48,389 bases of DNA from Candidatus Magasanikiibacteriota bacterium. Lineage in GTDB: Bacteria; Patescibacteriota; Patescibacteriia; Magasanikbacterales; UBA922. The notes under the pieces are model-generated. The model was not told where the DNA came from and made no database searches. It saw only the letters and a list, made by a program, of their open reading frames with translations. Shown piece by piece: positions 1 to 45,301 of this stretch (the first letter of the stretch is position 1; the number at the start of each line of letters is the position of its first letter). The stretch spans positions 1 through 48,389 of the forward strand of contig PBBY01000014.1 in the NCBI GenBank assembly GCA_002716765.1, read 5' to 3'. Position numbers and translations under genes: made by a program.

Positions 1-125
1 ATACAATAATACAAAAAACACTCAATGACGAGTGTTTTTTGTCCTAAACCGTTTCTATGCAGAACATAAAAACGGTAATTGGTGGTCACGCAATACAGAA
101 AAGAATTTTCTTGTATGTTGTGACA
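1..125. repeat. Direct repeat copy 1, 3' flank of an accessory cassette
   Basis: This stretch recurs at 2359-2482. The first ~100 bases are essentially identical, and the last ~25 differ by small indels and substitutions. It begins at the window edge, so its left boundary is unknown. It contains a perfect terminator hairpin and lies just downstream of the minus-strand gene at 150-875. Copy 2 has the same relation to the HD-domain gene at 2520-3731. Short matching sequence (ACTAAACTAA) continues towards both stop codons. It reads as the shared 3' end of two gene cassettes. No ORF is seen in it. Confidence 0.9.
13..40 (-). terminator. Bidirectional intrinsic terminator in repeat copy 1
   Basis: A perfect 11-bp stem (AAAAAACACTC / GAGTGTTTTTT) closes a 6-nt loop AATGAC. 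A-run and T-run flanks allow termination in either direction. It sits about 110 bp past the stop of the minus-strand gene ending at 150. Confidence 0.85.
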
Positions 126-11758: not shown

Positions 11759-12841
11759 ATGTTACCAAAGGAGGTGTTGTTTTCTTTTTTTCCAAAAAGT
11801 ACCAACAAAAGGTATGCTGAATTACTCAACACTTTTTCATCATTAGAGTATGCGTGGCACGCAACCAGGGCAGAACTAAAACAAACCAAATGGAAGCAGG
11901 AACTCATAAACGAGTTCTTTTTTTGGAAAAAAGATTTTAATGAAGAAAAAACACAGACCATGTTAGCGCAACAAGAGATTTCATATATATTACGTAATAA
12001 TCCAGATTATCCAGAATTACTGCAAAATATTTATGATCCGCCATTTTGTTTATTTATCCGTGGATCATTGCGAAAGTGCACCATTCCTTTGGCTGTTGTT
12101 GGTCCAAGAAAAAATACCCAATATGGAAAATACATTACCACAGAATTAGTAAAACCACTCGTAGAGGCTGGCGTAAGTATTGTAAGCGGCTTGGCATATG
12201 GCATAGATGCGATTGCGCATTCTGCCGCGCTTGCGGCAAATGGAAACACTATTGCGGTGCTTGGTGGCGGCATAGATAAATACCACATAACCCCAGCCTC
12301 GCACACAGGCCTTGCCGAAAGAATAGTAGAACATGGCGGTGCCATTATATCTGAATTCCCGCCCGGAACCATTCCATCCAAATTTACTTTTCCCAGAAGA
12401 AACCGCATAGTTGCTGGCATGTCTTTTGCCACACTTGTTATTGAGGCCGCAGAAAAGTCTGGTGCATTAATTACAGCACAATGTGCTATTGATGCACACC
12501 GCGATGTATTTGCCGTACCACAAAATATTAATTCTCCCAATTCGATTGGTGTTCACAAACTCATTCAATCTGGTGCACACTTGGTAACCCAAGCAACTGA
12601 TATTTTAGAAATACTCGAAGTTGAGACGCGCACACAGCACAAAGAAACTAAGACCATAATTCCAGAATCACCCGCCGAAGCAACTATCTTACAATATATT
12701 ACTCATGAACCAATACACATAGACATGCTTACAAAACAAGCTAATATGCCAAGCGCAGAAATAACTGGCACATTGACCATAATGGAAATGAAAGGTGTGG
12801 TAAAAAATATTGGAAATATGATGTATATTGTGTGCAAATGA
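11759..12841 (+). CDS. dprA: DNA-processing protein DprA, 360 aa
   Basis: The Rossmann-like DprA/Smf domain occupies ~110-285: PLAVVGPRKNTQYGKY, VSGLAYGIDAIAH, TIAVLGGGID, EFPPGT, FPRRNRIVAG and SGALITAQ are all diagnostic. A C-terminal winged-helix-like segment follows (~300-360). DprA loads RecA onto incoming single-stranded DNA in natural transformation. No SD precedes the ATG, and the start is 3 nt after the pth stop. Curiously, an AAAGGAGG lies inside codons 3-6, in front of GTG and TTG codons, but too close to serve them. An 8-bp inverted repeat (12841-12848 with 12866-12873) follows the gene; a terminator is not convincing. Confidence 0.95.
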   Translation: MLPKEVLFSFFPKSTNKRYAELLNTFSSLEYAWHATRAELKQTKWKQELINEFFFWKKDFNEEKTQTMLAQQEISYILRNNPDYPELLQNIYDPPFCLFIRGSLRKCTIPLAVVGPRKNTQYGKYITTELVKPLVEAGVSIVSGLAYGIDAIAHSAALAANGNTIAVLGGGIDKYHITPASHTGLAERIVEHGGAIISEFPPGTIPSKFTFPRRNRIVAGMSFATLVIEAAEKSGALITAQCAIDAHRDVFAVPQNINSPNSIGVHKLIQSGAHLVTQATDILEILEVETRTQHKETKTIIPESPAEATILQYITHEPIHIDMLTKQANMPSAEITGTLTIMEMKGVVKNIGNMMYIVCK

Positions 12842-12945: not shown

Positions 12946-15291
12946 ATGCCAAAAACACTCGTTATCGTAGAGTCCCCCACAAAAGCAAAAACTATATCTA
13001 AATTCCTTGGACCAGAATACATCGTTACATCATCTTTTGGTCATGTACGAGATTTACCAAAAAGTAAAATGGGGGTAGATACCGAAAATGGTACTTTTAC
13101 CCCACAATATAGAATTTCCCCAGATAAAACACAACAGGTAAAAAAATTAAAAGAACTCGCAAAAACATGTGAAAATAATATTATATTTGCGACTGATGAA
13201 GACCGTGAAGGAGAGGCTATTTCCTGGCATTTAGCTTATATTTTTGGCATCAAACCAGAAGTGGCAAAACGAATTGCATTTCATGAAATTACAAAACACG
13301 CAATTGAAGAGGCCTTAAAGAACCCGCGAACCATAAACCAAGAGTTAGTCGACGCACAACAGGCTCGGCGAGTACTTGATAGATTGGTTGGTTATGAACT
13401 TTCTCCATTTTTGTGGAAAAAAGTATCACCCGGATTATCTGCCGGCCGGGTACAATCTGTTGCTGTGCGATTAGTTGTAGATCGAGAAAAAGAACGGGAT
13501 GCCTTTATAAGTGAAGAATACTGGTCTCTGGAAGGTGTGTTTGCAAAAACAAAGGATACCGAAAAAACATTTACCGCAAAACTCCATGGGATTGATGGAA
13601 AAAAATTAGCAAAACTTGCTATTGCCAATAAACCTGCAATGGACAACATTATAACAGATCTCAAGGCTGCTGATTTTTCTGTTACCAAGATAGAAAAAAA
13701 AGAAACAAAAAGAACTCCCCCACCACCATACAGAACATCAACACTTCAACAACAAGCCAACCAAAAACTTGGGTACTCTTCAAAACAAACCATGCGACTA
13801 GCCCAGCAACTCTATGAAGGAATAGAAACTGGTTCAGATAGCGCAGGTCTGATTACCTATATGCGAACCGACTCGACCAACTTATCGAATAAATTTCTTT
13901 CTGAAACAAAAGGATATATTATAAAAACATTTGGCGAAAAACTTGCTGCAGAAAAACCAAGACGCTACGCTTCAAAAACAAAAGGTGCACAAGAAGCACA
14001 CGAAGCAATTAGACCAACTGACCCAGCAAAGACACCAGAACTATTGGAAAAGTACCTTACTCCACAACAGCACAAACTCTATTCGCTTATTTGGAAAAGG
14101 GCGGTGGCAACACAAATGAGTGTGGCAAAACTAGATAAAACGACCGTTGATGTAGAAAGTGCCGGCGCACAAAAAACATATCAATTTCGCGCTTCAGGAC
14201 AAACCCTTGTGTTTCCTGGATGGCTCACGCTTTACCCAAAGGCGGTTACAGAAGAAATGCTTCCAGAAATGGCGGTAAAAGATGCGCTTACCTGTTCTGA
14301 TTTTACCCCAGAACAACATTTTACACAGCCGCCAGCACGGTATTCCGATGCCACACTTATTAAAAAGCTAGAAGAATTAGGCATTGGTCGGCCTTCTACT
14401 TATTCCCCAACCATTGCCACAATAGAAGCAAGAAAATATGTAGACAGGGACGACAATAAAAAGTTTAAACCACTCGACGTAGCATACATTGTAAATGAGG
14501 TGTTAGTAGAACACTTTAGTGCTATTGTGGATTACAACTTTACTGCACAAATGGAAGAAGACTTAGACGCAATAGCCGAAGGAAAAAAAGAATGGAAACC
14601 CATAATTAAAGGTTTTTATATCCCATTTCACGAAACAGTAGAACAAAAAACACAAGATGTTTCCCGAGACGATATTTCTCATGCAAGAGAACTTGGTGTA
14701 GACCCAAAAACAAAAAAACCAATTATTGCAAAAATTGGAAGATACGGACCATTTGTTCAACTTGGCTCAAAAGACGACGAGGAAAAACCTCGCTTTGCCT
14801 CGCTTCAAGAAGGGCAAATGATTCAAACCATTACATTAGAAGAAGCACTTGTTTTACTTAGCCTCCCAAGAACACTCGGGCAAGATGAAAACAACGAAGA
14901 CATAAAAGCAAACATTGGTCGATTTGGTCCATATGTACAAATTGGTAAAGAATACTATTCCCTTAAAAAAGCAGAAAAAGATCCGTATATTATTACACTT
15001 GCAGAAGCAAAAGAAGTTATTGCACTCGGCAGAGAAGAAAAGGCCAAAAAAGTAATCAATGTATTTGAAGCAGAAAATATTCAGGTATTGCGTGGTCCAT
15101 ATGGTCCATATGTAACAGACGGCAAAAAAAATGCACGTGTACCAAAAGACAATGAAAAACCTGAAGAACTTACATTGGAGCAGTGTCAGGAATTACTAAA
15201 AAATGCCAAACCTTCCAGAAGAGGAAAAAAAGCAACTACAAAAACAAAAAGTACGGCAAAAAAAGCAAAGAAAACAAAAAAGAAAACCTAA
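12946..15291 (+). CDS. topA: DNA topoisomerase I (type IA), 781 aa
   Basis: The N-terminal TOPRIM domain opens with TLVIVESPTKAKTISKFLG and includes ATDEDREGE (metal-binding acidic motif, ~81-89). The core carries LSAGRVQSVA (~164-173) and the active-site tyrosine in ITYMRTDSTNLS (Tyr305). LGIGRPSTY is also present. Instead of C4 zinc fingers, the C-terminus has three repeats of a Gly-rich kind: KIGRYGPFVQLG, NIGRFGPYVQIG and VLRGPYGPYVTDG. A Lys/Ala/Thr-rich basic tail of ~30 residues ends the protein. The enzyme relaxes negative supercoils. It has its own promoter and a perfect 14-bp terminator. Confidence 0.97.
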   Translation: MPKTLVIVESPTKAKTISKFLGPEYIVTSSFGHVRDLPKSKMGVDTENGTFTPQYRISPDKTQQVKKLKELAKTCENNIIFATDEDREGEAISWHLAYIFGIKPEVAKRIAFHEITKHAIEEALKNPRTINQELVDAQQARRVLDRLVGYELSPFLWKKVSPGLSAGRVQSVAVRLVVDREKERDAFISEEYWSLEGVFAKTKDTEKTFTAKLHGIDGKKLAKLAIANKPAMDNIITDLKAADFSVTKIEKKETKRTPPPPYRTSTLQQQANQKLGYSSKQTMRLAQQLYEGIETGSDSAGLITYMRTDSTNLSNKFLSETKGYIIKTFGEKLAAEKPRRYASKTKGAQEAHEAIRPTDPAKTPELLEKYLTPQQHKLYSLIWKRAVATQMSVAKLDKTTVDVESAGAQKTYQFRASGQTLVFPGWLTLYPKAVTEEMLPEMAVKDALTCSDFTPEQHFTQPPARYSDATLIKKLEELGIGRPSTYSPTIATIEARKYVDRDDNKKFKPLDVAYIVNEVLVEHFSAIVDYNFTAQMEEDLDAIAEGKKEWKPIIKGFYIPFHETVEQKTQDVSRDDISHARELGVDPKTKKPIIAKIGRYGPFVQLGSKDDEEKPRFASLQEGQMIQTITLEEALVLLSLPRTLGQDENNEDIKANIGRFGPYVQIGKEYYSLKKAEKDPYIITLAEAKEVIALGREEKAKKVINVFEAENIQVLRGPYGPYVTDGKKNARVPKDNEKPEELTLEQCQELLKNAKPSRRGKKATTKTKSTAKKAKKTKKKT

Positions 15292-15545: not shown

Positions 15546-15574
15546 TTGACAAAAGTTTAATTCTGTGATATAAT
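15546..15574 (+). promoter_or_regulatory. Consensus promoter of the tandem-hairpin RNA
   Basis: -35 TTGACA (15546-15551), exactly 17 nt, -10 TATAAT (15569-15574): a perfect consensus promoter. Start expected near 15581, eight bases before the first hairpin. Confidence 0.92.
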
Positions 15575-15598
15575 ACTGCATTAGTAAAGTTCATTAGT

Positions 15599-15655
15599 GT
15601 GTTCGGTGCTTGAGCCGCGAGGTACCCCTCCTTAACCTCAACGTTCGTGTCGAAC
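15599..15655 (+). repeat. 57-bp identical core, copy 1
   Basis: Identical to 15694-15750 (95-bp offset). It comprises GTGTTCG, the 45-nt apical segment and CGAAC. Identity stops abruptly on both sides. Confidence 0.95.
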
Positions 15656-15693
15656 GCACTGATGAACTGAAAAATAATTAAAAGACCTGCACC

Positions 15694-15750
15694 GTGTTCG
15701 GTGCTTGAGCCGCGAGGTACCCCTCCTTAACCTCAACGTTCGTGTCGAAC
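15694..15750 (+). repeat. 57-bp identical core, copy 2
   Basis: Second copy of the core at 15599-15655, embedded in the longer terminator-like stem. Confidence 0.95.
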
Positions 15751-15817
15751 ACGGTGTAGGTCTTTTTTTATTATTTTATACCTATTTCCCTACTATCCAC
15801 AGATAAAAAACGAAGAG

Positions 15818-15910: not shown

Positions 15911-16057
15911 ATGGGAAGAAGAAAAAAGAACAATCAAATAGAGAAGCAACGTAGATTTGCGGCAAAAATACGCAGAAATACCAAACGCCTAAAGCGTATT
16001 GCGAAGGATAAAACTCCTGGGCAATTGCTTCATGAAATAATGTACGGATCACTGTAA
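15911..16057 (+). CDS. Small highly basic protein, 48 aa
   Basis: The ATG at 15911 ([20 protein letters not shown]) reads 48 codons to TAA at 16055-16057. About 15 residues are Lys or Arg, spread along a probably helical N-terminal two-thirds. An ordinary-looking end follows, [14 protein letters not shown]. The composition suggests RNA or ribosome binding; the family is unknown to me. An ATG 7 nt upstream is in another frame and stops early. Its own near-consensus promoter supports a real gene. An 11-bp inverted repeat TGTACGGATCA / TGATCCGTACA (from 16041 to 16076) spans the stop codon and the tRNA-Asp -35 box; it lacks a T-run. Confidence 0.65.
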
Positions 16058-16064
16058 AAAATAC

Positions 16065-29261: not shown

Positions 29262-32200
29262 TTACTCTACCTCTTGATCACCATCACAGGCAAGAGGTAG
29301 TTCATCAACATATTCTGCTGAATCTAGCCCTAAATATGAACTAAAGAGATTGTCTTCTTCTTTTAGTAATCGTAAAGGGGAAAGATTTCTTTGATTATTA
29401 TAGTGTGTTTTATTAGGTGGAAACAATTTATCACAATCAGTTTCAGTCACCTGTTTCTTTGTAAAGGTTATGATACCATCTTCGCCAACAGAATCGAAGC
29501 TATAATCATACCCCCCTTCTTGTTCATTGAAAAATTTGATTTCATGAGCATGTCTAAACTTATCCAACGAATCGATATTTTCACCAAAAGCCCTTTCAAA
29601 ACCTTCCATCAAAGCACCACCACAAGCAGTAACCTTGAAAGAAAAGGAGTCGTCTAGAGGAGAAATTACATAATATGGAAGTCCGAGTTCTCTTATAACT
29701 GTTCTTATATTAGTGTTCTCAAAAACATAAGAAGGACCTAAACCTTCACCACCACAATGATTTCTATTAGTAACGCTCACACCAGCACTGAGTAACATTT
29801 CTTGAAAAACCATATCTGGTTGTCCAGGCCTTGGCGGCAAGATTCTTGGCTGCTCAAGCTGACTCTGCCCTGCTGATTCTACTCTATCTAAGAAACCTTG
29901 ACACTGATTCTCATTAATATCACAAGTTCTATTTGGCAAACTTTGCCCGAACCCACCTTGAATATCTTGTAAGTTTGTTCGAATTACACCATGATTTTGT
30001 ATATTACCTGGATTAACAATGTTCTCGTCATTTGCACAATAATTTTCTTGACCAACCTCAACAATATCATATTCACAGGTATCTGGGTTAAATACTATAT
30101 TAAACGGATGCCAGTATCTTGCTCCAGGATTAGCTGACTCCACCGCCTCACTCAACCTAAACACATAATCTGGTGTATACAAAGAGTATTTTGGATTTTG
30201 GCCTTCATGATATTTATAAACCTCTACCACAACATCTTCTCGTGAAACAAGCTCTTGGATGGATGTCTGGTTTTGTCCTGATACGCCAACATAAAACGCA
30301 AGCGGATACGCATCATTTAGTAAACTTGTTCGCTCTGACAAAAGGAAATCTGTATTTACTGTTGATGCTTGTGTAATAGTACTACCATTTTTTACACCAA
30401 AAACCTTACTCATTGCCACCGGCCTTCGGACAACTCTTGTTTTATCTGCCCATTGCTGCTCCATTATACAGTCTCCAGCACTCTCTACCGAGTAAGGAAT
30501 CCAGTAATTACTCCAATAATTGCTTGTTCCCAACCTTTGTTGTTCACAAGCATTTCCACCATAGTCTAAATAACTAAGTATTGTCTTTCCAGAATCCTCT
30601 GAAGCCTCTGGCACATACGCACCAACAGTGCTATTAATATTACCTTCCGCAGGTTTTGCACTATAAAAATTTCCATAAAACATTGGATCATTTTCTAAAT
30701 CCTCTTTCCATTTTATCACTACTCTAAATGTCCCTTCTGGTACGGCCGGAGAAAGTGTTACCTCATTTTGCATGGTCCTCGACTCACCGTTTACAGGATA
30801 CGGGAAAACACTTAAATTATTGTTAGCAAGTAAATCATCATTAATTGTTGTTTTTTGTTGATCCTGCCATGACTGATCAGACATTAATTGTTTTGGATTA
30901 AAAATAATTCCATACTCTTCACTACACAACTCTGATGTTTCCAATCTTTTATTCAACACTTCTCGCTGATTTCTTGTTAGAAGTTGTAAAGTGTTGGAAT
31001 AATTACTACGCTCAGCTATCCAAGAAAACCTTGTTACCACCCTCTGTTGTGAGTTAAACCTACCAAAATAAGTTAGTAAACCCCCACCCCATTCTGAGTT
31101 TCCAGCAAAGTCTGGGTCTTCTAAAACGTTGAGTATTTTTAATTGCGGCACCGCATCCCTTCGATCTACGACAAGTCCACAGTTAACACAATTATTAATA
31201 AGTTCCCTACAGTCAGATGAACATTGGTACACTCCTTTGTCTGGACAAATTTTATCTTCACTGTCTAGTGACGGTGAATCATTACTCAAAACGCCGATCC
31301 GTGCTAAGACTCCCAAAACCACATCACCTAAAGAGTCAGGATCCAAAGGATCGGTAAATGGAGAACTTACCACCCGCCTTGTAATTGGATCAACCTCACA
31401 TTTTTCATAATCTGCAAGTTGTTGGTTATTTATTATTTGTGTTTCTGGTAGTTTATCTACCACCCCATTACCGCAGTATGCAATTGGACTTACTGTTAAA
31501 ACCTCTCCACAATCCTCCGAACAATATGAACACGCTTCTGAGTATTCTGGTTCACATGGAATTCCATTTTGTGGACCTAAATCACAAACCTCAACATTCC
31601 CTTCCGCATTTGGTGATTCCACAACTCCATCACCACAAGCACCAGGAGGGGCGGCAACTTCGACTATTTCATCCATTTGACATAACCTGTTACACCCATC
31701 CCCATCAACCTCATTTCCATCATCACACTGTTCTCCTGAAATTCCTTGAACAATCCCATCACCACAATACGTGCCATAATTTTGACAATCTAAAGAACAA
31801 GAGAAGTCTTTATTTATGGAGTATGGTGTTCCAAAATTTCCAACCCGATCAATACAAGGACCAAGATCTTCGTAACTACGAGCTTCACCCTCATCTTCTA
31901 TGTTGATAATATGGAAGTCCTCGGCACCACCTATTCTGTTAAGGTGTGTAGTAAATTCACCTCTTGGCACATACTTACAGTCCGAATCTTGTAAACAACT
32001 TACCGTTTTATCAAACTGACAATGTTTTCCAAGAATTTCTTCGGCATTGTTAAATAAGCTGTTAAACACCCCATGGCCCACAAATAACGCAAAGGCAAAT
32101 GGATTATCACAAAGAGAGTCTGATTCACCATAAAATTCCCTAACACGACCAATGTGTGGTCTTGCCTCAGCACCTACTGGAACCCCTTCTGTAATGAGCT

Positions 32201-35200
32201 CCCAGTTTGGTTTATTACCCGCCACTCTACATACATATTCCTCACCATCATCAAAGTTTTGATAAGGCCTCCAGGTTATATTTTGATTAGTCTCTGGAAG
32301 GGTTGTAGTAAATACAGTGGAAGAATTTATTTTCATCCCTATATAAGAAGCACAACTTAACTCCACTTCGTCATCTGGGCTTATTCCACGAATAGCACAT
32401 TGTGAATCAGGGCAACAAATACCTGATTCCTGGTTTGGTAATTTTGCACAATTGGGCTTACCTAATGCTGAATAGCACTGGTAGTCGTTGGTACATTCTG
32501 CTCTAAGACTTGTGTCTGGCTCTCCATCTAGTTCTATATCCCATACCCACTGTGCATTACCAACAGGTACTTCAAGATTTGAGTATCGTTGGTGACAAGA
32601 AAAGTTAGGAGTTGGATCAGTCTCAGGATACAATCCAAACAAGACATTCGAATACTGCCCACCTTCTATCCGTTCACCAGGCGGAGTGGTACTAAACTGA
32701 GATTTCCAATAATTGTTAGCCGCAACACAAGAAGCACTTTCTGGGTACATTCCACATTGATTTGATTCACAGCACACACCTTCGTCTTGGTCTGGCAGTT
32801 TTGAGCAGTTACCACTTTGACAATCTGTATTTTTTGTACAGATGGCTGCGTTATTTACTAACTCAGGCACAGAACATGTCGATTTCCACCTACCCTGAAC
32901 ACATTTCTTATCTCCTACACCTAATCCGTAGAGAGATTCTTCATAAATAAAACCTTCACCAACACACCCATCGTCTTCTGGCCAAAAACTGCAACCCTCT
33001 ATACAACACATTCCATGAATACCGTTTAAAGAACTACAGATACCAAGATCTTCAATAACCTGACCACCATCTCTCAGATTACACCAGTCATCATTTTCAC
33101 ATGCCGTCATAGGTGTATTTCTTATTCTTGGGTCTATTGTATAGTTTACGTCTTCTTCAAAAACAAATGGATCAGGACTAGCATAAAAACAACCATCAAC
33201 TAACTCTGCGTTAGGTTTTCCCTGACCAGCTACCGCACGCCACGTTCCATTATTACACTGCATTTCCGTACCAGCACTTAACATACGACTCTCTTTACAG
33301 TCTGGTGGGTTACCTCCATTAAGTAAGTCACCATCAACAGACGTTACCTCGCCGTCACAGTTAAGGTCTATTAAGAAAAGTGATGAATTATTTACACAAG
33401 TTTTATCGACGTTCAGTGAGGCATAACAATCTGTGTCAAAATTATCCAAGAGTCCATTTCCAGTAATATCTCCAAATAATTGATAATTTGATCCATCTAT
33501 AATCTCACCACTTTCTACACACCGGTGTTCAAATGGATACATGCCACAAGAACCAACATTACAACACAATCCATAGTCATCGGTAAACTTTTTACAACTA
33601 CTTCTTGCACATTGTTCTGAGTTTGAACATAATGCATTCTCATGTTCGGCTGTTCCACAATATTGTCCTAATGTTTCTACAAGCCCAGCAATAATCACGT
33701 CCTTTCTTTCTGGGTATAAAATTGATTCATACAGCGCAGAACCTAACCCTTCGATGGAATAGCGTGTTCTATATCTATATCTATAACTAACACCCTCCCC
33801 CTCTTCATCGTCTTCTTCACTATCCCAAACATCCACAAAATCAATATGAGTAATTTGTTCACACAATTCTTCTGGCTGTACTGTTAGGTCTCCACAAAAA
33901 CCAGCTGCGCTTATACCACTACACTCACTATTACACTGTCCATACTGACCATTTAGCCTTCCATCATCACAATCTTCGTCCCCTTCAATAATTCCGTTTC
34001 CACACACCGCTACAAGCCCTCTACACACTGGCTCTGTGTAAGTACAGTCTGGTTGACATACTTTTACCGCAGCCTCAAGATTGTTGTTTGAGCAAGATAC
34101 CGAATTATTTTGTGGTTGGACACAGTCTCCACCCCCATTACACTCATCATTATCGCTACAATATTCTGTAATATTATTTTCACAAAAACCAAGACAGGTG
34201 TTACCTTCTCCACAATCACCATCATCAAAACACGTATCAGCATTATTTTCACTACATCTTCCCTCTATTTTTCCTTCTCCACCATTATTATGTACACTTC
34301 CTGGTGGATCACATTCTTCACTTTGATTTATTACACCATCACCACACTGCCCGCCAAGTGCGCTATATACTTGCTCTGCCGCACACCATCTTTGTGTGGT
34401 GACATCTTCTTGTGGTGTTTGTGTTATAAAGTCATCTATAAATGTTGTGCCAGCACTATTTATTACAGAAGAATTATCTATGTTAAAGAATTCAAACGGT
34501 ATATGAAGGGTATATTTTGTAGTATTTTCAACTTCATACTCATTTACACTCATTGACCGTGGGCAAATAAATTCTGTTTCAATTGGATTCCAACATGTTT
34601 GCCCATCTACTAATTCACATGTATTTCCTTCTCCAACACATTCTTCGTCTTTGTAACAGGCGGCAGAAATCATTGTGCTTTCTGTATTACAAATAGTATC
34701 AACCTGAGTAAAATGTTCTACAAAATTTTGATTTGTTTTAATTTCTGCATTATTTTCCAAATATTCAACCAGTGTGGCTTGAATAGTTGGGTTTACAAGC
34801 TGATTTGGTGTATTTATCCAGGACCCATCTTGATATGAGGAGACAAAAACGGAGCCACCAATAGTTGCAGAAACCACTTTAGACTCATGACAATCAATAA
34901 TCTCATTCTTGTTACTATCTATATCTTCAGGGTATGCTTGATTATTATCTAAAATAACCAAAACAAGTTCTGCATCTTTTTCTGTAAACTTTCCGTCACA
35001 ATCCACATCAATATCAGCGACTTCGTTATGGTTTGGGCATTTCACACAAAAAGGAATATCTGGTTCATCTATACAAACTTCCGCAAGATCACCATCACTA
35101 CCACCAGCTCCTATAAATTCCTCAAAACATGCAATATCGTCAACCTTTAACATACCATCACCACTAATATCCCCGTATACCACTTCTGGATTATCTTGTT

Positions 35201-38200
35201 GTATTTTAAGCCCAACAGAACTAACATCAAAACACTCACTATATTGTCTTTCACTACACTTCCCACAAGTTGTCCATCTACTAATTGGATCAAATGGTAG
35301 TGGTGCACCAATAATTTGAGAAAGTCTTCCCCAAGATGGCCATTGTGTATTTGTATATTGTGGAATATAAGTTCCACCAAGAAGTGGTGGATACACACCT
35401 TCTCTGTCGTGGTACGCGCCAAGCGCTTGCTGCGTTTCTTTTACCGCTTGCAACCGACCTAAATCACGGAAAAACTTTGTTTTTGCATTGGAACAGACCC
35501 CGTTTGTACCTTCGATTGGATACCCAGACCCATCTTTACAATCAAAGTCTGTGTTACAAACTATATCTACTGTTTGTGCCAATACATGAGAAGGGTTATC
35601 ATCTTGATCATAAATTGGATCATATTTTTCCAATGCTTCTACTTGAGTATCGTCAGCAAAATCACCATTCGAGCCAGCACCTTCAACCAAACATCGGCCA
35701 GCTTCGGAAAAATTAGTATTAAACTCAAGCGAACTCATAAGTTGGTTGAAGACATTTTTGGTATTTTCTTGTGCGCCAACATTTATGGTAAAAAGATAAA
35801 TATTATTATAAATCTTGTATCGGCCACCTTCTTTTACTATATTCATGGCATTTATATAATAGGAATTTCCGTCTGTTACCGCGTCGTATCCAGCAATATT
35901 TGCCTGGGATAAATTTGAAGATGGAAATTTTTCTGCAACCCAACCTTGCGCGGTTAGGGCGTTTGGATTTGGGAATATTTGTATACCAATAGCATCATCA
36001 TTTTTTTGTGTATCGGTAAAGAGTTTTCTTTGCAGTGTGTCTTGGTGGGTCAAAAGTTGTGTCGTTTGTTGCTCATTCACATCACCACTGTATTGTAATT
36101 GACCATCTAAAAGCAGAGAACCCAACTCTAGCTCACCTAAAAACGGTAAATCATCATCTTTATCTCCTTGAAGTCCGGCATCGGCACAATATGACATACT
36201 CAAATTGTGATAAGAATCCTTATAACTTGCATCACCATTTCCTGGCCACGGGTTTTCACAAAAGAGTGATTCTAGTTTTGTTATTGCAGCAAAAGTCTTT
36301 CCTTCGTCAGAGGGTTCTGAAATGTCTGCTGTAACCGTTGCTATTACACTTGCATCATCTTTTCCTTCTACGGCGGTGGAGCTAATATCTTTTACCAACA
36401 GGTTAGGCGGTTCTTCGGTATCGGAAATAGTAAAGAATGCCCGGTTTGAGCTCCAACTTACTTCCCAACTGTATGCAGGAGTTGTTTGGATTGATTCGTT
36501 ATCTTTAGTAAAGACTGAAGCAACAAATCTGTGTGATTCATTTGGACTGGTAAATAAATATGCATCTGGGTCTACTGTGAGATGATCTATTTTACATATT
36601 TCGTCTTTTGTTTCAAAAACAAAGACATCATTTGGCCCATACCCAGCCGTTCCTTGAAGAATTTGAGCACCTCGGATACCCACCCCTTTTGTGTCTGTTA
36701 TTCCGTCTATTCCACCTTTAAGAATTACAGCATACTTCGTCTGTGTTTTTAGTACATCTTCTAAAATAATATTAATGGTGCTAGTTGTATGCGGCCCACC
36801 TTCTTCGTTACCTGAAATAACATTTCGTACTTCTGGTGTTATTCCTATTTCACTTACACACCATTTTTTATTAGGATCCAATGACGATGGATTATCTGCA
36901 TGAGTTGGTGTTGCAAATAATCGTGCAAAAAATGTTTTAATACCATTCCATATTTTTCTAAAAAATCCTTCTGAACTTATTAAATCGTCTGGAGGCGCTT
37001 GTCCGTTTGCAAGAAATACAAGATCAGTAACCTCTTCTTTTTCATTTGCACAAACATCTTTTTCTTCGGCAAGGATAACATTTCCTTCTAATGAAAACTT
37101 ATCAATAAATCCTTGATCAATAAATTCCACGTATATTGCTGAATTTGGACAAGCGTCTATTTTATTATTTTGTGGATTTTCTTGTGTTCTGTGCATCCTA
37201 TCATAACAGCAAGAATTTGCACCAACACCTTTTTGATTTACCGGATTATTTATACAGGTATTTTCTTCGGCTGTTTCGGTATGGCCACAAAGTAGACTAT
37301 ACTCACCAGTTCCCTCAACCTGTTCTGTGAGATTATTATAGTTATTATTTTCTCCTTTTATACTAACTGCTGTAGCAATAATCCTTGCTTCTTGTGCTAA
37401 ATTAATCGGATTAAGCACTCCTTCTCCAACTGCAGTTACAAGTTGCACAGGATTTTCTACAGATCTTTGTTGTTGCGGATTACCTATTTCACATGCAAGA
37501 AATTCTCCAGGACCAGTTTCCCCATCTCCACAAATTGATCTTTCGCTATATAACACAGATGATCCGACTATTCTGCAACTTCCAGCGACACACGCATCGC
37601 TATCATCTGGATTACACCCAACTCCACCATTTTCTACTGCTGGTATATCCGCAAGCAAAGCCCCGTCTTCATTACAAAGACTGTGCAATAAACATCTATT
37701 ATTACAATGACGTGCTGCGTCTAAATTGTTAATAACAGTTGACCCGTTAATTCCTCCAACACTTATAAGTTTTCCGTTTTCGTTAAACTCACACTCTTCT
37801 CCATCTTCTAGTTCTCCGTTTCCGCAGATTGTTTTTCCACTAATATCAGTATCATCACCTACTGTTGAATTACACGCGTCTATTCCATTTTCTAGATCAT
37901 TTGCAGCACACCAAACACCAGAAAGTGGAGATCCTATGTTTAGACATTGATTAGAACAACCTGAACCAAGAGAAGGTTCACACTCTTCTCCTGAAGTAAC
38001 TTCACCACTTCCACACCATGGATCTTGTCCCACTCCACTGTCTGTAAATTCAGCCCCTTCATTGGTACATGTTGCAGAACATCCATCACCGCTATCACTA
38101 TTTCCATCATCACATTCTTCTCCGACTACTTGTTCAACAATGCCGTTGCCGCACTGAGAATCTTGTTCTCCACTGACTTCATTCCCCGGTCGTAAACAAT

Positions 38201-41200
38201 CGTAACCACAACTTACTCCTGGCACTTCTTCTTGAATTGCTATATCACAATCCTCTCCGGCGTCTACTGTACCATTTCCACAAAGCGCCCCGGACAAAGA
38301 ATGATAAGTACTTGATGTTACTTCACTTCCTTTTAATGTACACGTTTCGTCACAATATGGTGAAACAGCAGAAAGATCACCTTTTAAATTAGTTATTTCT
38401 GCGACATCACCAGCTAAAAAACCTTCTGATGTTTGAAGAATGTCATTTTCTGTACGCCATTCCCAACCATATTTCCATGGATCTAATTCTTGACCAGCCA
38501 AATTACAGGCATCTGGCTCTGAAACCGGAATAGAAGAGTATCCTGTTATTTGACCTATATCTCCTGCAGTAAACGGGGTTGGAATAATTCTTACAGAATC
38601 AATAACACATCGGGCTGCTTCGCCTTCCCCTGATTTTGTTCTAAATCTCCAAGAAAACTCCTCTTTCATTAAGACACCTGGAATCTCAGAACCATCATCT
38701 GTATACCCACCAATCGCCCGAATAGTGGTTGGAACGGTGACTTTGTACCAGGTATTTGATTCTAATTCATTCGTCGGATTAAATCTATATTCTACTTTTG
38801 AATTATTTAAGTTTTGAAAATTAAGAACAAGATCTTCATTTGTTTGTGCACACGTTTCCGAAGTACATTTTTGCAATCTAATACCATTTTGCACTGTATC
38901 ACTCATCATTTCTTGATTAAACTCTATACCAAGTGACACATTCACACAAGCATAAGAACAATCTGGCCAAAAATTAATTACTTTTGGATCACTTAAATCA
39001 ATAGTTAATTCACTTTCCGCGACTATATCCCGGCTAGGTGTTGATGTGGTTGCTGTAATTGACACAGTTCCCGGGCTTGGAACAGTATTCTTTTTAGCTT
39101 GGACTATTACACGAGAATCGGTGTATTGTCCCGCTACCGCAGAAATCTGCACTTTAGCGTAGTTGCTACCCCCCTGTTCCGGAGCCCACTGCCAATCAAA
39201 GCCATCTACACCAATAACGGTACATGCTTGATCTGCCAAACCAAAGACAAAATAATATAATGGATTTGATGGTATTACTCCAAAAGCTACCTCCTGTCTT
39301 GGGTATCTAGGATCTTGTAAATAGCCCAAAAATGTTGTTGTTTTTTCTGGCGGATTAATTCCAGCTGCAGCAATTTCACAAGAACTACCTTCGGGACCTG
39401 TTTTGAAATCAAAGCAATATGCAGTATCCCCACCACAACCTCTGGTTTTCTGTAAAGGAAGATTTTTTAGTTGGAGCTCACCACCACTTCTAATAAATTG
39501 TTCTGATTGAATATTTTCTGATAACTCTACATGGTACCATGTTTCTGGAGCCAACCCATCTTCCCAAATAGTTAGTGTTTTATTTTCTAAAGATGGCTGA
39601 AATGCATCTTCGACACTGTTTATACGCACTTTCCTTGAACAATCTGGCTGACCCTGATCATCTTCACATGTATATAACCGGACATTTTCTTTAGTAACAG
39701 TTCCTGGATTCATTTCTGTATTAAAAGCAACCTGCACTTCTGCATTTAGGCAGGTATTATTACGGTCAACTGTTTGCCAACTTCTCCATGGTGTTGGGGA
39801 TGGTTGAGAAATAATTTCATCTTGTTCGCAACTACCACTATTCCACGAACATTTTGGAGTTTCGTTGCAATCATCTTCTCTGTCTATAGTTACACAAGCA
39901 ATATCGCATTGCTCTAACACTCTTGGTAATTCTGGAATCCAGCCGGTGCTAAATCGCCACACATAGCCTGCTTCTCTGGTTTCTCCGGCACAAAGATTTT
40001 GTCCAGAAAGCCAGACACCAGCATCTGAACCATCTTCACAACATCGATAATTAACTCCTGGAGCACTAACATTTTCTTCTCGACAATCTTCTACGGTATA
40101 TGTTACACCATTGCTTACTAATTCATTTTCTGGTTCACCTGTTGCAACTTTAATAAACCCTGTTTGCATAGAGTATCCATCTTTTTCTGGGAGAAGTGTT
40201 ACGATTTCTGTATTATTTGCTTCTTGAATAACAGGATCTTGTATATCACCAGGAAGCGGGTCGACAGAAGAAAGCCAAGTACTAAAATCATTACTATCTG
40301 AACCTTTTGTCCAAAAGTATACCGTTGGTTCAGCACCAAAGTTTACTCCTTCTATGGTAATTCCATCGTTATCATTAGGAAGTGGTGCCGGACCTTTGTT
40401 AGGTGTAATACTACAAATTCCCGGCATTGGTTGACCTTCTTTTACTTCAAAAGTAATATCTGCATTTGAAACTTGTGCATTTGATTGTACGGCAATATGA
40501 TAAATATTAGCTGCAATGTCCAACCCATTAAGATCTGTGACTTGCATGATAATTTCTGTGTCATTCCATAAATCACCACTACAATTTTCTAAAGGCGGTG
40601 GTGTTAAGATAAAACATTCATCTCCAGGGTTAGGGTCATTTGCACATTCTATTGCTCCAGCTTGAGTTGTATGGATTGCAACCACACCAACCCTATTGCC
40701 AAAGTTTTCTCCGGTAATTGTTATAAGACTACCGTCTGTAACAGACTGCGGATCAACGGAAGTAACAATTGGTGTTATTTGTGCCAAATCTCCAGCAAGT
40801 TCTAAAAAGTAGGCATTACTTCTTTTTACATCACCACCGATCTGATTATCCAAAAAAACAGGAATTCTGGAAGGCTGTATGGTTGGAATACCAGTTTCTA
40901 GCAGACTGTCTGTCCAAGTGGACACGCTTCCAATAATATCATTATTACCAAAATATAAATTATCTCCTTCTTCTTGGTTGTTGCCAAAATTTACTCCACT
41001 CACAACAACATCCTGTCCTAAAAACGCATTTTGTATTGGTATTTGTTGATTATTTTGTGCTGCGACAAAACAAATTCCAGGCCGAGAAACATTGTTTATA
41101 GCAAAATATGAATTTCTTCCTCTATCGTCTATGCTTGTTTCTTCAATTATTTCCCCACCATCATCTTCATTTGTAATTTGTAAATAAACTGAACCATTGT

Positions 41201-42956
41201 CAGGTAGACCCGCAGGAACCGCTGCTATAATTTGATGGTCTTGCCACGCTCCAGAAGGATCTCCACAAAGAGTAAAATCAGCATCATATACTGTTTCTAC
41301 TTCATTCTCGCCAATATGAACAAATTCTAAATTTCTATCTCCTTTTTGATCTCCAAAATATCTTCCCCAGACCGTAATAATATCTCCAACCGCCCCATCC
41401 CAAGATGGTAGTACATCTAAAATAATTGGTTTTGCTACACATTGACTATTTTCACACAAACCAGAAGCGCATTCGGCATTATTATTACAAGCATCATCCG
41501 CGTCTGCCAAGCACGGACCACCCACATCTATTCCGGTTTCTCCTGGATCTTGAATGTTATTGTTACAATCTTCTCCGACTAGTGTAAAAGACGATGTTTT
41601 TTCTGCGCTATTTCCATCCACGTCAAAAGTAGTAACTGTAACGGTGTACACTGCTGGAGTTTGCATACCAAGCCCTGGCGTAAAACTAAAATCCATTTCG
41701 TATGGCCCATGAGATCCTTGTAAATAATCAAGTTCAACAGGATCTTGTGGCGGATCGGCGACATCTGGATGGTTAACCAACAGACCATCATAATAGTTAT
41801 ATTCAACATTTCCAGCTATATTAAGATGAACATACCCAATTCCACCTTGATCAAAATTACCAACATTTTTTCTATCTTGAATACTGGTACTAATGGGGTA
41901 TTCTACACCAAGTGGTAAAATAATTCCTATATCACCAGCATTATCCTCGGTATTTCCACCTATTTGTATGTCTGCTATTTCTGGTGGAGTTTGGTCTATT
42001 GCAGCTTGTCCAACTTTAAAATCTGTTGTTAACGGGAAAGTAAAGTTAGGACAACCAACAGGAAGATCCCCATCCTCATTTTCTAAATCTTGCACCAAAC
42101 CAGCGCCGTTCTCATCTTTTATAGCTTCAGAAATTTGTATTATGTATTTTTCATTATTAGAAGTATTAAGACATGAATCTTGCTGATTAGCTTCATCTCC
42201 TGGCAAACATGTTTGACTTCCTTCGTTAAATGTAAACTCAACTACCTGCCTATTACTATCCTCTACAAAACGAGCCTCTCTTGGTGCGATACCCCCATCT
42301 TCACCTTCCCGATTTAGGGCTAACACTTGTTCTACATTAACTTCTTGACTGATTGGATTACTAAATACAGCACGAACAGTTATGTTTTGCAATCCTGTTT
42401 CTTTGTCTATTTCGTGTTCTGTACTTGGAGAAATGCTTTTTACTACAAAAAGGTCGCCAATACATCTGTCTACAGCTCCTCCGGCAGGTATATTACCACA
42501 ATCAAACCCTTCACACCCTTGAACCACTCTTTCTTGGGCGGCTTGATCTATTATGGCTGATTTAAGTTTATTTAACACAAAAGACGCAATTGCAAAGGCA
42601 GACATAACAACAACAAGACCAATGGTTGCGTTTATTAAAATCTTTTTTGATTGTGTAATTTTGTCATCATTGCCACCAGCGGTCATCCAGTTAAATCCGG
42701 CGTATAAAATAAATCCAACAGCAATAATACCCAAAAGTCCCAAAAATACATTTATTATTCTGGTAATAATAACGCGAACATCTGTATTTGCTAGCGCAAT
42801 TCCTGATTCATCTAAATCTGTGACACCGAAAACGTCTGGAGGTGCTTGTTGGGCGTGAACCGGAAACGATACAAAAAATAACGAGCACAAAACTATGGCA
42901 CCAGCAATACAAAGTAAAAGTATTTGTGAAATAGTGATAGCTTTTTTCGTGTGCAT
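29262..42956 (-). CDS. Giant cysteine-rich surface protein with pilin-like N-terminus, 4564 aa
   Basis: Signal peptide with likely cleavage after VHA (residue 35). A segment PDVFGVTDLDESG follows, then two helices (~62-91, ~103-131) resembling TrbC/VirB2-type pilins. Three IPT/TIG-like Ig domains start near 509, 729 and 842. Ig-like Big_5-type domains lie near 1065, 1334 and 1935. Eleven Cys-rich elements of the CGNG ... GEECDDGN type cluster at ~1555-1800, ~2868-3020 and ~3728-3800. Dockerin/EF-hand-like loops lie near 2592, 2640 and 3159 (GDISGDGMLKVDDI, DIDVDCDGKFTEKDA). A segment near 2495-2540 recalls type II secretion pseudopilin C-termini. Probably a calcium-stabilised, disulphide-rich surface adhesin. 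No SD. Downstream of, and probably co-transcribed with, its 739-aa paralogue. Confidence 0.88.
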   Translation of the reverse strand: MHTKKAITISQILLLCIAGAIVLCSLFFVSFPVHAQQAPPDVFGVTDLDESGIALANTDVRVIITRIINVFLGLLGIIAVGFILYAGFNWMTAGGNDDKITQSKKILINATIGLVVVMSAFAIASFVLNKLKSAIIDQAAQERVVQGCEGFDCGNIPAGGAVDRCIGDLFVVKSISPSTEHEIDKETGLQNITVRAVFSNPISQEVNVEQVLALNREGEDGGIAPREARFVEDSNRQVVEFTFNEGSQTCLPGDEANQQDSCLNTSNNEKYIIQISEAIKDENGAGLVQDLENEDGDLPVGCPNFTFPLTTDFKVGQAAIDQTPPEIADIQIGGNTEDNAGDIGIILPLGVEYPISTSIQDRKNVGNFDQGGIGYVHLNIAGNVEYNYYDGLLVNHPDVADPPQDPVELDYLQGSHGPYEMDFSFTPGLGMQTPAVYTVTVTTFDVDGNSAEKTSSFTLVGEDCNNNIQDPGETGIDVGGPCLADADDACNNNAECASGLCENSQCVAKPIILDVLPSWDGAVGDIITVWGRYFGDQKGDRNLEFVHIGENEVETVYDADFTLCGDPSGAWQDHQIIAAVPAGLPDNGSVYLQITNEDDGGEIIEETSIDDRGRNSYFAINNVSRPGICFVAAQNNQQIPIQNAFLGQDVVVSGVNFGNNQEEGDNLYFGNNDIIGSVSTWTDSLLETGIPTIQPSRIPVFLDNQIGGDVKRSNAYFLELAGDLAQITPIVTSVDPQSVTDGSLITITGENFGNRVGVVAIHTTQAGAIECANDPNPGDECFILTPPPLENCSGDLWNDTEIIMQVTDLNGLDIAANIYHIAVQSNAQVSNADITFEVKEGQPMPGICSITPNKGPAPLPNDNDGITIEGVNFGAEPTVYFWTKGSDSNDFSTWLSSVDPLPGDIQDPVIQEANNTEIVTLLPEKDGYSMQTGFIKVATGEPENELVSNGVTYTVEDCREENVSAPGVNYRCCEDGSDAGVWLSGQNLCAGETREAGYVWRFSTGWIPELPRVLEQCDIACVTIDREDDCNETPKCSWNSGSCEQDEIISQPSPTPWRSWQTVDRNNTCLNAEVQVAFNTEMNPGTVTKENVRLYTCEDDQGQPDCSRKVRINSVEDAFQPSLENKTLTIWEDGLAPETWYHVELSENIQSEQFIRSGGELQLKNLPLQKTRGCGGDTAYCFDFKTGPEGSSCEIAAAGINPPEKTTTFLGYLQDPRYPRQEVAFGVIPSNPLYYFVFGLADQACTVIGVDGFDWQWAPEQGGSNYAKVQISAVAGQYTDSRVIVQAKKNTVPSPGTVSITATTSTPSRDIVAESELTIDLSDPKVINFWPDCSYACVNVSLGIEFNQEMMSDTVQNGIRLQKCTSETCAQTNEDLVLNFQNLNNSKVEYRFNPTNELESNTWYKVTVPTTIRAIGGYTDDGSEIPGVLMKEEFSWRFRTKSGEGEAARCVIDSVRIIPTPFTAGDIGQITGYSSIPVSEPDACNLAGQELDPWKYGWEWRTENDILQTSEGFLAGDVAEITNLKGDLSAVSPYCDETCTLKGSEVTSSTYHSLSGALCGNGTVDAGEDCDIAIQEEVPGVSCGYDCLRPGNEVSGEQDSQCGNGIVEQVVGEECDDGNSDSGDGCSATCTNEGAEFTDSGVGQDPWCGSGEVTSGEECEPSLGSGCSNQCLNIGSPLSGVWCAANDLENGIDACNSTVGDDTDISGKTICGNGELEDGEECEFNENGKLISVGGINGSTVINNLDAARHCNNRCLLHSLCNEDGALLADIPAVENGGVGCNPDDSDACVAGSCRIVGSSVLYSERSICGDGETGPGEFLACEIGNPQQQRSVENPVQLVTAVGEGVLNPINLAQEARIIATAVSIKGENNNYNNLTEQVEGTGEYSLLCGHTETAEENTCINNPVNQKGVGANSCCYDRMHRTQENPQNNKIDACPNSAIYVEFIDQGFIDKFSLEGNVILAEEKDVCANEKEEVTDLVFLANGQAPPDDLISSEGFFRKIWNGIKTFFARLFATPTHADNPSSLDPNKKWCVSEIGITPEVRNVISGNEEGGPHTTSTINIILEDVLKTQTKYAVILKGGIDGITDTKGVGIRGAQILQGTAGYGPNDVFVFETKDEICKIDHLTVDPDAYLFTSPNESHRFVASVFTKDNESIQTTPAYSWEVSWSSNRAFFTISDTEEPPNLLVKDISSTAVEGKDDASVIATVTADISEPSDEGKTFAAITKLESLFCENPWPGNGDASYKDSYHNLSMSYCADAGLQGDKDDDLPFLGELELGSLLLDGQLQYSGDVNEQQTTQLLTHQDTLQRKLFTDTQKNDDAIGIQIFPNPNALTAQGWVAEKFPSSNLSQANIAGYDAVTDGNSYYINAMNIVKEGGRYKIYNNIYLFTINVGAQENTKNVFNQLMSSLEFNTNFSEAGRCLVEGAGSNGDFADDTQVEALEKYDPIYDQDDNPSHVLAQTVDIVCNTDFDCKDGSGYPIEGTNGVCSNAKTKFFRDLGRLQAVKETQQALGAYHDREGVYPPLLGGTYIPQYTNTQWPSWGRLSQIIGAPLPFDPISRWTTCGKCSERQYSECFDVSSVGLKIQQDNPEVVYGDISGDGMLKVDDIACFEEFIGAGGSDGDLAEVCIDEPDIPFCVKCPNHNEVADIDVDCDGKFTEKDAELVLVILDNNQAYPEDIDSNKNEIIDCHESKVVSATIGGSVFVSSYQDGSWINTPNQLVNPTIQATLVEYLENNAEIKTNQNFVEHFTQVDTICNTESTMISAACYKDEECVGEGNTCELVDGQTCWNPIETEFICPRSMSVNEYEVENTTKYTLHIPFEFFNIDNSSVINSAGTTFIDDFITQTPQEDVTTQRWCAAEQVYSALGGQCGDGVINQSEECDPPGSVHNNGGEGKIEGRCSENNADTCFDDGDCGEGNTCLGFCENNITEYCSDNDECNGGGDCVQPQNNSVSCSNNNLEAAVKVCQPDCTYTEPVCRGLVAVCGNGIIEGDEDCDDGRLNGQYGQCNSECSGISAAGFCGDLTVQPEELCEQITHIDFVDVWDSEEDDEEGEGVSYRYRYRTRYSIEGLGSALYESILYPERKDVIIAGLVETLGQYCGTAEHENALCSNSEQCARSSCKKFTDDYGLCCNVGSCGMYPFEHRCVESGEIIDGSNYQLFGDITGNGLLDNFDTDCYASLNVDKTCVNNSSLFLIDLNCDGEVTSVDGDLLNGGNPPDCKESRMLSAGTEMQCNNGTWRAVAGQGKPNAELVDGCFYASPDPFVFEEDVNYTIDPRIRNTPMTACENDDWCNLRDGGQVIEDLGICSSLNGIHGMCCIEGCSFWPEDDGCVGEGFIYEESLYGLGVGDKKCVQGRWKSTCSVPELVNNAAICTKNTDCQSGNCSKLPDQDEGVCCESNQCGMYPESASCVAANNYWKSQFSTTPPGERIEGGQYSNVLFGLYPETDPTPNFSCHQRYSNLEVPVGNAQWVWDIELDGEPDTSLRAECTNDYQCYSALGKPNCAKLPNQESGICCPDSQCAIRGISPDDEVELSCASYIGMKINSSTVFTTTLPETNQNITWRPYQNFDDGEEYVCRVAGNKPNWELITEGVPVGAEARPHIGRVREFYGESDSLCDNPFAFALFVGHGVFNSLFNNAEEILGKHCQFDKTVSCLQDSDCKYVPRGEFTTHLNRIGGAEDFHIINIEDEGEARSYEDLGPCIDRVGNFGTPYSINKDFSCSLDCQNYGTYCGDGIVQGISGEQCDDGNEVDGDGCNRLCQMDEIVEVAAPPGACGDGVVESPNAEGNVEVCDLGPQNGIPCEPEYSEACSYCSEDCGEVLTVSPIAYCGNGVVDKLPETQIINNQQLADYEKCEVDPITRRVVSSPFTDPLDPDSLGDVVLGVLARIGVLSNDSPSLDSEDKICPDKGVYQCSSDCRELINNCVNCGLVVDRRDAVPQLKILNVLEDPDFAGNSEWGGGLLTYFGRFNSQQRVVTRFSWIAERSNYSNTLQLLTRNQREVLNKRLETSELCSEEYGIIFNPKQLMSDQSWQDQQKTTINDDLLANNNLSVFPYPVNGESRTMQNEVTLSPAVPEGTFRVVIKWKEDLENDPMFYGNFYSAKPAEGNINSTVGAYVPEASEDSGKTILSYLDYGGNACEQQRLGTSNYWSNYWIPYSVESAGDCIMEQQWADKTRVVRRPVAMSKVFGVKNGSTITQASTVNTDFLLSERTSLLNDAYPLAFYVGVSGQNQTSIQELVSREDVVVEVYKYHEGQNPKYSLYTPDYVFRLSEAVESANPGARYWHPFNIVFNPDTCEYDIVEVGQENYCANDENIVNPGNIQNHGVIRTNLQDIQGGFGQSLPNRTCDINENQCQGFLDRVESAGQSQLEQPRILPPRPGQPDMVFQEMLLSAGVSVTNRNHCGGEGLGPSYVFENTNIRTVIRELGLPYYVISPLDDSFSFKVTACGGALMEGFERAFGENIDSLDKFRHAHEIKFFNEQEGGYDYSFDSVGEDGIITFTKKQVTETDCDKLFPPNKTHYNNQRNLSPLRLLKEEDNLFSSYLGLDSAEYVDELPLACDGDQEVE

Positions 42957-45238: not shown

Positions 45239-45301
45239 ATACATATATTGTTGAATCCAAGGGAGCATGGGACCTGGGACTCTTAAAAATAAATAACACT
45301 G

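Follow-up and report, generated by a model that had tools for sequence, protein, structure and literature searches.

The window analysed here, a 48,389-nucleotide (nt) stretch of DNA from a Candidatus Magasanikiibacteriota bacterium (contig PBBY01000014.1), carries downstream of topA what is, judged by its sequence, a previously undescribed, stand-alone small RNA (sRNA) gene of Candidatus Magasanikbacteria (Patescibacteria). As listed in Table 1, an exact sigma-70-type promoter lies ahead of two long hairpins, the inner parts of which form a direct repeat of 57 nt with 100% identical copies, while beyond the repeat the two hairpins have arms of different sequence that nonetheless pair. The predicted folding energy was -38.1 kcal/mol for hairpin 1 (z -6.9) and -47.1 kcal/mol for hairpin 2 (z -8.0), and the full transcript reached -88.1 kcal/mol, compared with -45.1 ± 3.9 in shuffled sequences, 0 of 200 of which were as stable. 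The transcript start was placed about 7 nt past the -10 element and the end at the U-tract; because hairpin 2 runs directly into this U-tract, it is also the terminator. An earlier sequence-only reading had described the perfect TTGACA-17-TATAAT promoter, a transcript at 15581-15770, two hairpins with an identical inner core and different but paired outer stems, and the second hairpin as terminator, and all of these agreed with our repeat comparison, folding and transcript prediction. The most informative feature was absent from it, namely the CCUCCUU inside the loop ACCCCUCCUUA, which copies the anti-Shine-Dalgarno (anti-SD) tail of 16S ribosomal RNA (rRNA).

Table 1. Positions of the predicted sRNA gene, its parts and related features in the window.
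Feature	Position	Strand	Basis or remark
-35 element TTGACA	15546..15551	+	sequence; matching promoter before hairpin in 57/65 loci, TTGACA exact in 54
-10 element TATAAT	15569..15574	+	17-nt spacer from -35
Predicted sRNA transcript, ~190 nt	15581..15770	+	predicted from promoter and terminator; fold z -11.1
Hairpin 1	15588..15668	+	folding; covariance model R2 52.0 bits
Hairpin 2, doubles as intrinsic terminator stem	15680..15766	+	folding; R2 61.9 bits
57-nt repeat, copy 1	15599..15655	+	direct-repeat comparison
57-nt repeat, copy 2	15694..15750	+	direct-repeat comparison
Apical loop 1 ACCCCUCCUUA	15624..15634	+	anti-SD core CCUCCUU at 15627-15633
Apical loop 2 ACCCCUCCUUA	15719..15729	+	anti-SD core CCUCCUU at 15722-15728
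Terminator U-tract	about 15763..15769	+	sequence; strong U-tracts in 62/74 loci
topA, upstream neighbour in window's genus only	12946..15291	+	Pfam Topoisom_bac, Toprim; same neighbour in congener G001
dprA Shine-Dalgarno AAAGGAGGTG, candidate target	11767..11776	+	start TTG 11777; putative target role

A plain DNA search of relatives gave genuine matches in the congener and in three further genera. Covariance model R1, built from eight hairpins, matched 41 of 46 genomes of the family and 65 of 86 genomes of the order, and a second model, R2, which adds an inner stem, contributed six more (G041, G050, G038, G043, G040 and G047), bringing the order to about 71 of 86. Most absences within the order look like missing sequence, because rplT is missing from the assembly in eight of the 15 unmatched genomes and reaches the contig end in two more. 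Beyond the order, G348, G291 and G247 scored, all three from the same class, and an even draw of 380 phylum genomes, with only 11 candidates per genome scored, gave no match outside the order; with so few candidates scored in each genome, the class and phylum searches may have missed distant copies. The named genomes fitting R2 were Candidatus Magasanikbacteria or unnamed Patescibacteria. The many matches of a named-genome scan outside these groups were attributed to chance, as none of those examined fits R2, and spread by phage was rejected, as 15 viral contigs fit a loose pattern and none fits the covariance model. The hairpin found no Rfam match in the window at gathering and permissive scores, or in 16 homologous loci at gathering scores.

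Comparison of these sequences established the conservation of the structure, strand, promoter and loop identity of the RNA, as well as the relocation of its gene. Covariation was computed on 66 hairpins in the model-based alignment A3. Across them 93.4% of cells pair, both-sided changes occur at 31 of 32 pairs, and compensatory cells numbered 473, compared with 138 ± 11 after shuffling. The covariation score was 0.664, against 0.278 for shuffled alignments and 0.12-0.15 (maximum 0.149) for slid pairings. The outer helix belonged to R1, so this alignment leans toward it; in the inner helix, which was not in R1, 6/6 pairs covary. G-U cells exceeded A-C cells (231 vs 47), and the strand is therefore fixed; covariance scores were also far higher for the sense than for the antisense strand. 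An antisense reading, with the loop AAGGAGGGG as an SD decoy, was ruled out by the G-U bias together with the direction of promoter and terminator. Covarying helices, a conserved promoter and terminator, and a fixed strand mark a conserved structured RNA of a new family. The suggestion of a regulatory sRNA or new structured RNA class thus gained support: the covariance-model search proposed along with it recovered order-wide homologues with covarying stems, and no strong match to an existing Rfam family appeared.

We then compared the apical loops with 16S rRNA. The loop NNCCCUCCUU was found in 74/74 R1 hairpins and CUCCUCCUU in two outliers; CCCUCCUU was present in all 74 apical loops, CCCCUCCUU in 68 and CCCCCUCCUU in 53. 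CCUCCUU occurred in 83/83 hairpins, the 74 of R1 and nine more distant ones, and its probability of being unpaired, from partition functions, averaged 0.997 over the 74. Closing pairs, stems and loop flanks vary freely around this fixed 7-nt core. The 3' end of 16S rRNA in the window's genome is GGATCACCTCCTTTCT / GATCACCTCCTTTCT, whose anti-SD is identical to the core, while the letters preceding the core are mostly CCC or CC in the loop and CA in 16S. The invariant loop core is, in its letters, an anti-SD.

Pfam identified the neighbouring genes, and in 58 of 74 loci infC-rpmI-rplT ends no more than about 260 nt upstream of the hairpin. Promoters and terminators were called by consensus matching: TTGACA-16..18-TANNNT precedes the hairpin in 57 of 65 loci, compared with 4% of background windows, its -10 ending a median of 16 nt ahead, and a strong U-tract (at least 6 T in 8) follows in 62 of 74. 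Because its own promoter lies before the hairpin in most loci, the RNA gene is predicted to be independently promoted even beside infC-rpmI-rplT. A few copies lie 5-9 nt from the rplT stop codon with no clear promoter, and these may be released from the messenger RNA (mRNA). Such copies, and the U-tract ending most copies that lie no more than 260 nt from rplT, would fit a purely cis-acting element that serves the infC-rpmI-rplT mRNA as a specialised terminator or stabilises its 3' end. We give this explanation little credence, as a terminator has no need of an anti-SD loop that never varies, a promoter separates rplT from the hairpin in most copies, tandem pairs begin with a hairpin that does not terminate, and some copies stand alone, behind topA or before aspS. 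In the genus of the window (G000 and G001), an ordinary terminator follows rplT and the RNA occurs doubled behind topA, which indicates a function independent of the infC operon; G020 has one copy behind rplT and a second, with its own promoter, before an aspS-like gene (named by sequence reading). Relocation with conservation argues for action in trans.

At four loci (L182, L183, L184 and L185, in G348, G291, G247 and G041) a promoter of its own lies before the hairpin, and an SD-led gene for a secreted protein comes after it; in three of these loci a chain-length-determinant-like gene lies upstream and the U-tract after the hairpin is absent. No conserved downstream gene was found among the homologous loci. 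The window's tandem pair of identical apical domains had also suggested tandem aptamers to the sequence-only reading, and a tandem riboswitch or aptamer was therefore weighed. One hairpin was present in 57 of 65 loci, two in seven and three in one, so tandem doubling is not the family rule; the invariant part is an unpaired 7-nt anti-SD, not a folded pocket, and the RNA usually stands at the end of a transcript rather than in a 5' leader. With these findings and no conserved gene downstream, a riboswitch or aptamer is highly improbable, and the tandem-aptamer suggestion was not supported.

We lean, with some caution, towards a trans-acting sRNA that masks SD sites through its loop. The strong promoter would drive a short RNA with between one and three long hairpins, terminated by the final one, and each hairpin would present an open loop of about 10 nt, NNCCCUCCUU, with the CCUCCUU core. 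The loop would pair in trans with SDs of the AAGGAGG type and block 30S binding, so that translation would be lowered for the SD-led minority of genes (candidates are rpsU, type IV pilin, type IV secretion system (T4SS)-type pilin, dprA, DUF378, toxin and mobile genes) and the SD-less bulk would be spared. We infer the expression of the RNA, its pairing with mRNAs, the ensuing repression and the target set. The calculated loop-SD duplex energies were favourable, at -10 to -21 kcal/mol for SD-led genes and -1.5 to -3.2 kcal/mol for SD-less starts, with dprA at -12.1 and topA at -2.5 kcal/mol; repression by pairing at the mRNA initiation region is a prediction.

SD counts refer to pattern searches and to the loci at hand, not to whole genomes. 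The pattern AAGGAGGNG-N2-6-ATG occurred 426 times in 86 genomes, against 184 for the reversed pattern, the count including antisense 16S tails. GAGGTG or longer preceded the start in 7/7 rpsU genes found, two of them from outlying class genomes, and SDs also led genes for type IV pilins, T4SS-type pilins, DUF378, DprA, HicA-like, PIN, BRO-N, IS200-like and DUF559 proteins. dprA was SD-led in the window and in G026. It is one of few SD-led genes in the window, and its start is probably TTG 11777 with a strong SD (11767-11779, +) rather than ATG 11759 of the longest open reading frame (ORF). All seven rpsU (bS21) genes (L377, L379-L384) stand SD-led amid mostly SD-less genes, a Bacteroidia-like pattern that may deserve its own study.

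Several results weigh against SD masking in trans. Among 124 genes of at least 120 amino acids (aa) in the order's loci, SD-like matches of at least 4 letters were seen in 18, compared with 25 of 124 control positions, and matches of at least 6 letters in 4, compared with 1 control; because these genes show no SD excess over background, the target pool is small. None of roughly 100 inspected infC, rpmI and rplT starts had an SD, so self-targeting of the infC operon was ruled out and the usual neighbour operon is not a target. rpsU sites such as GAGGTG pair better with 16S than with the loop. Enrichment of loop-specific targets was absent: AAGGAGGTG, which complements 16S in full, outnumbered every other form in the matches listed, and AAGGAGGGG, which complements the whole loop, was not visibly favoured over other letters at its position. 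There was no sign of SD tuning to the loop over 16S. The outliers G348, G291 and G247 have no U-tract after the hairpin, which could be a 5' leader there. Loop-specific targeting through AAGGAGGGG had been considered as a separate candidate; it gave about 40 plausible ORFs, mostly accessory, with only DUF559 endonucleases and one secreted family recurring, and was unsupported as a specific signal, the 16S-complementary form being commoner.

Pairing with rRNA was rejected, since the 16S gene and the rRNA-operon DNA examined downstream of it have no AAGGAGG in the sense strand. This absence also tells against the RNA being a partner or sponge of another RNA that exposes a AAGGAGGG stretch, rather than an mRNA regulator. 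A precedent is RosA, a G-rich sponge of the C-rich sRNAs RoxS and FsrA in Bacillus (PMC8216469), but a conserved G-rich partner RNA was not found, and we consider a sponge quite improbable.

The main rival is that the hairpin would mimic the 16S 3' tail for recognition by a protein, such as bS21, bS18/bS6, IF3, or a KH or cold-shock protein that binds C-rich RNA, and would report or titrate that protein, coupling it to ribosome synthesis. The identity of the invariant core with the 16S anti-SD and the adjacency of the gene to infC-rpmI-rplT suit such a role, as does the resemblance of SD-poor genes with an SD-led rpsU to Bacteroidia, where bS21/bS18/bS6 hold the 16S tail (PMC9976891). However, relocation in genus g1 breaks the operon link, and a core of only 7 fixed nt with free flanks and closing pairs would suit base pairing better than shape recognition; we therefore regard this rival as unlikely. 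SD masking in trans could be carried one step further, in that an abundant anti-SD copy made beside the IF3/L20 operon would gate, as one class, those mRNAs that still carry an SD (bS21, pili, competence, toxins and mobile genes). This extension is tentative and on balance somewhat doubtful; if it held, the SD would be a regulatory tag and no longer a general start signal in a lineage mostly without SDs.

Other features of the window were also recorded. Between the sRNA and a tRNA gene lies a possible, very basic 48-aa ORF (15914-16060, +) with no Pfam match. A giant ORF of 4564 aa (29262-42956, -) has a T4SS-pilin-like N-terminal region and matches to bacterial immunoglobulin-like (Big_5), TIG and DUF4215 domains, and its product is probably a very large surface protein; the neighbouring 749-aa ORF at 43019-45268 has the same T4SS_pilin/Big_5 make-up.

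The literature searched linked Patescibacteria with studies of anti-SDs or sRNAs in passing only. A family of about 70 covarying homologues across the order, with an invariant loop and a concrete hypothesis of pairing, would therefore offer a first handle on RNA regulation in this very large uncultured radiation. It raises the general question of what role SD sites have in lineages that mostly abandoned them, and it allows a direct test by exchanging loop and SD in reporters, since both sequences are known.

Among known systems, the L20 leader (RF00558) is a 5' leader in the infC-rpmI-rplT operon and mimics 23S rRNA. The Magasanikbacteria RNA belongs to the same region, but lies 3' of the operon, downstream of rplT, is predicted to be independently promoted and mimics the 16S tail; no RF00558 covariance match was found in the window and 16 homologous loci. 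C-rich-region sRNAs of Bacillota target ribosome binding sites without Hfq. Like RoxS/RsaE, FsrA and CsfG of that phylum, whose C-rich unpaired regions are aimed at ribosome binding sites (PMC8216469), our RNA has a C-rich unpaired region, with a different structure and motif and no Rfam match. In Bacteroidia, where most genes are SD-less, bS21/bS18/bS6 hold the 16S tail and rpsU has retained an SD (PMC9976891); Magasanikbacteria likewise retain the 16S anti-SD though most genes are SD-less and rpsU is SD-led, whereas an anti-SD sRNA is not part of the Bacteroidia description consulted. The closest likeness is to the alphaproteobacterial sRNAs ar14/NfeR1, SmelA075/SmelA099 and Rhodobacter RS0680a, in which the same anti-SD loop recurs on several hairpins whose stems vary; NfeR1 acts at the initiation region of mRNAs, which it silences without Hfq and with its loops redundant to one another (PMC10746234, PMC3927594). 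Both groups are short transcripts of one to several tandem modules with anti-SD loops on varying stems. The loop of the Magasanikbacteria RNA is NNCCCUCCUU and theirs is CCUCCUCCC; it usually has one long hairpin (57/65 loci), theirs two to four in tandem; and it occurs in another phylum, beside other neighbours, with no Rfam match, in hosts whose genes are mostly SD-less. Because motif, module number, phylum and neighbours differ, it is not a member of that group, and the best-supported reading is that the Magasanikbacteria RNA would work like NfeR1/ar14 without being homologous to them.
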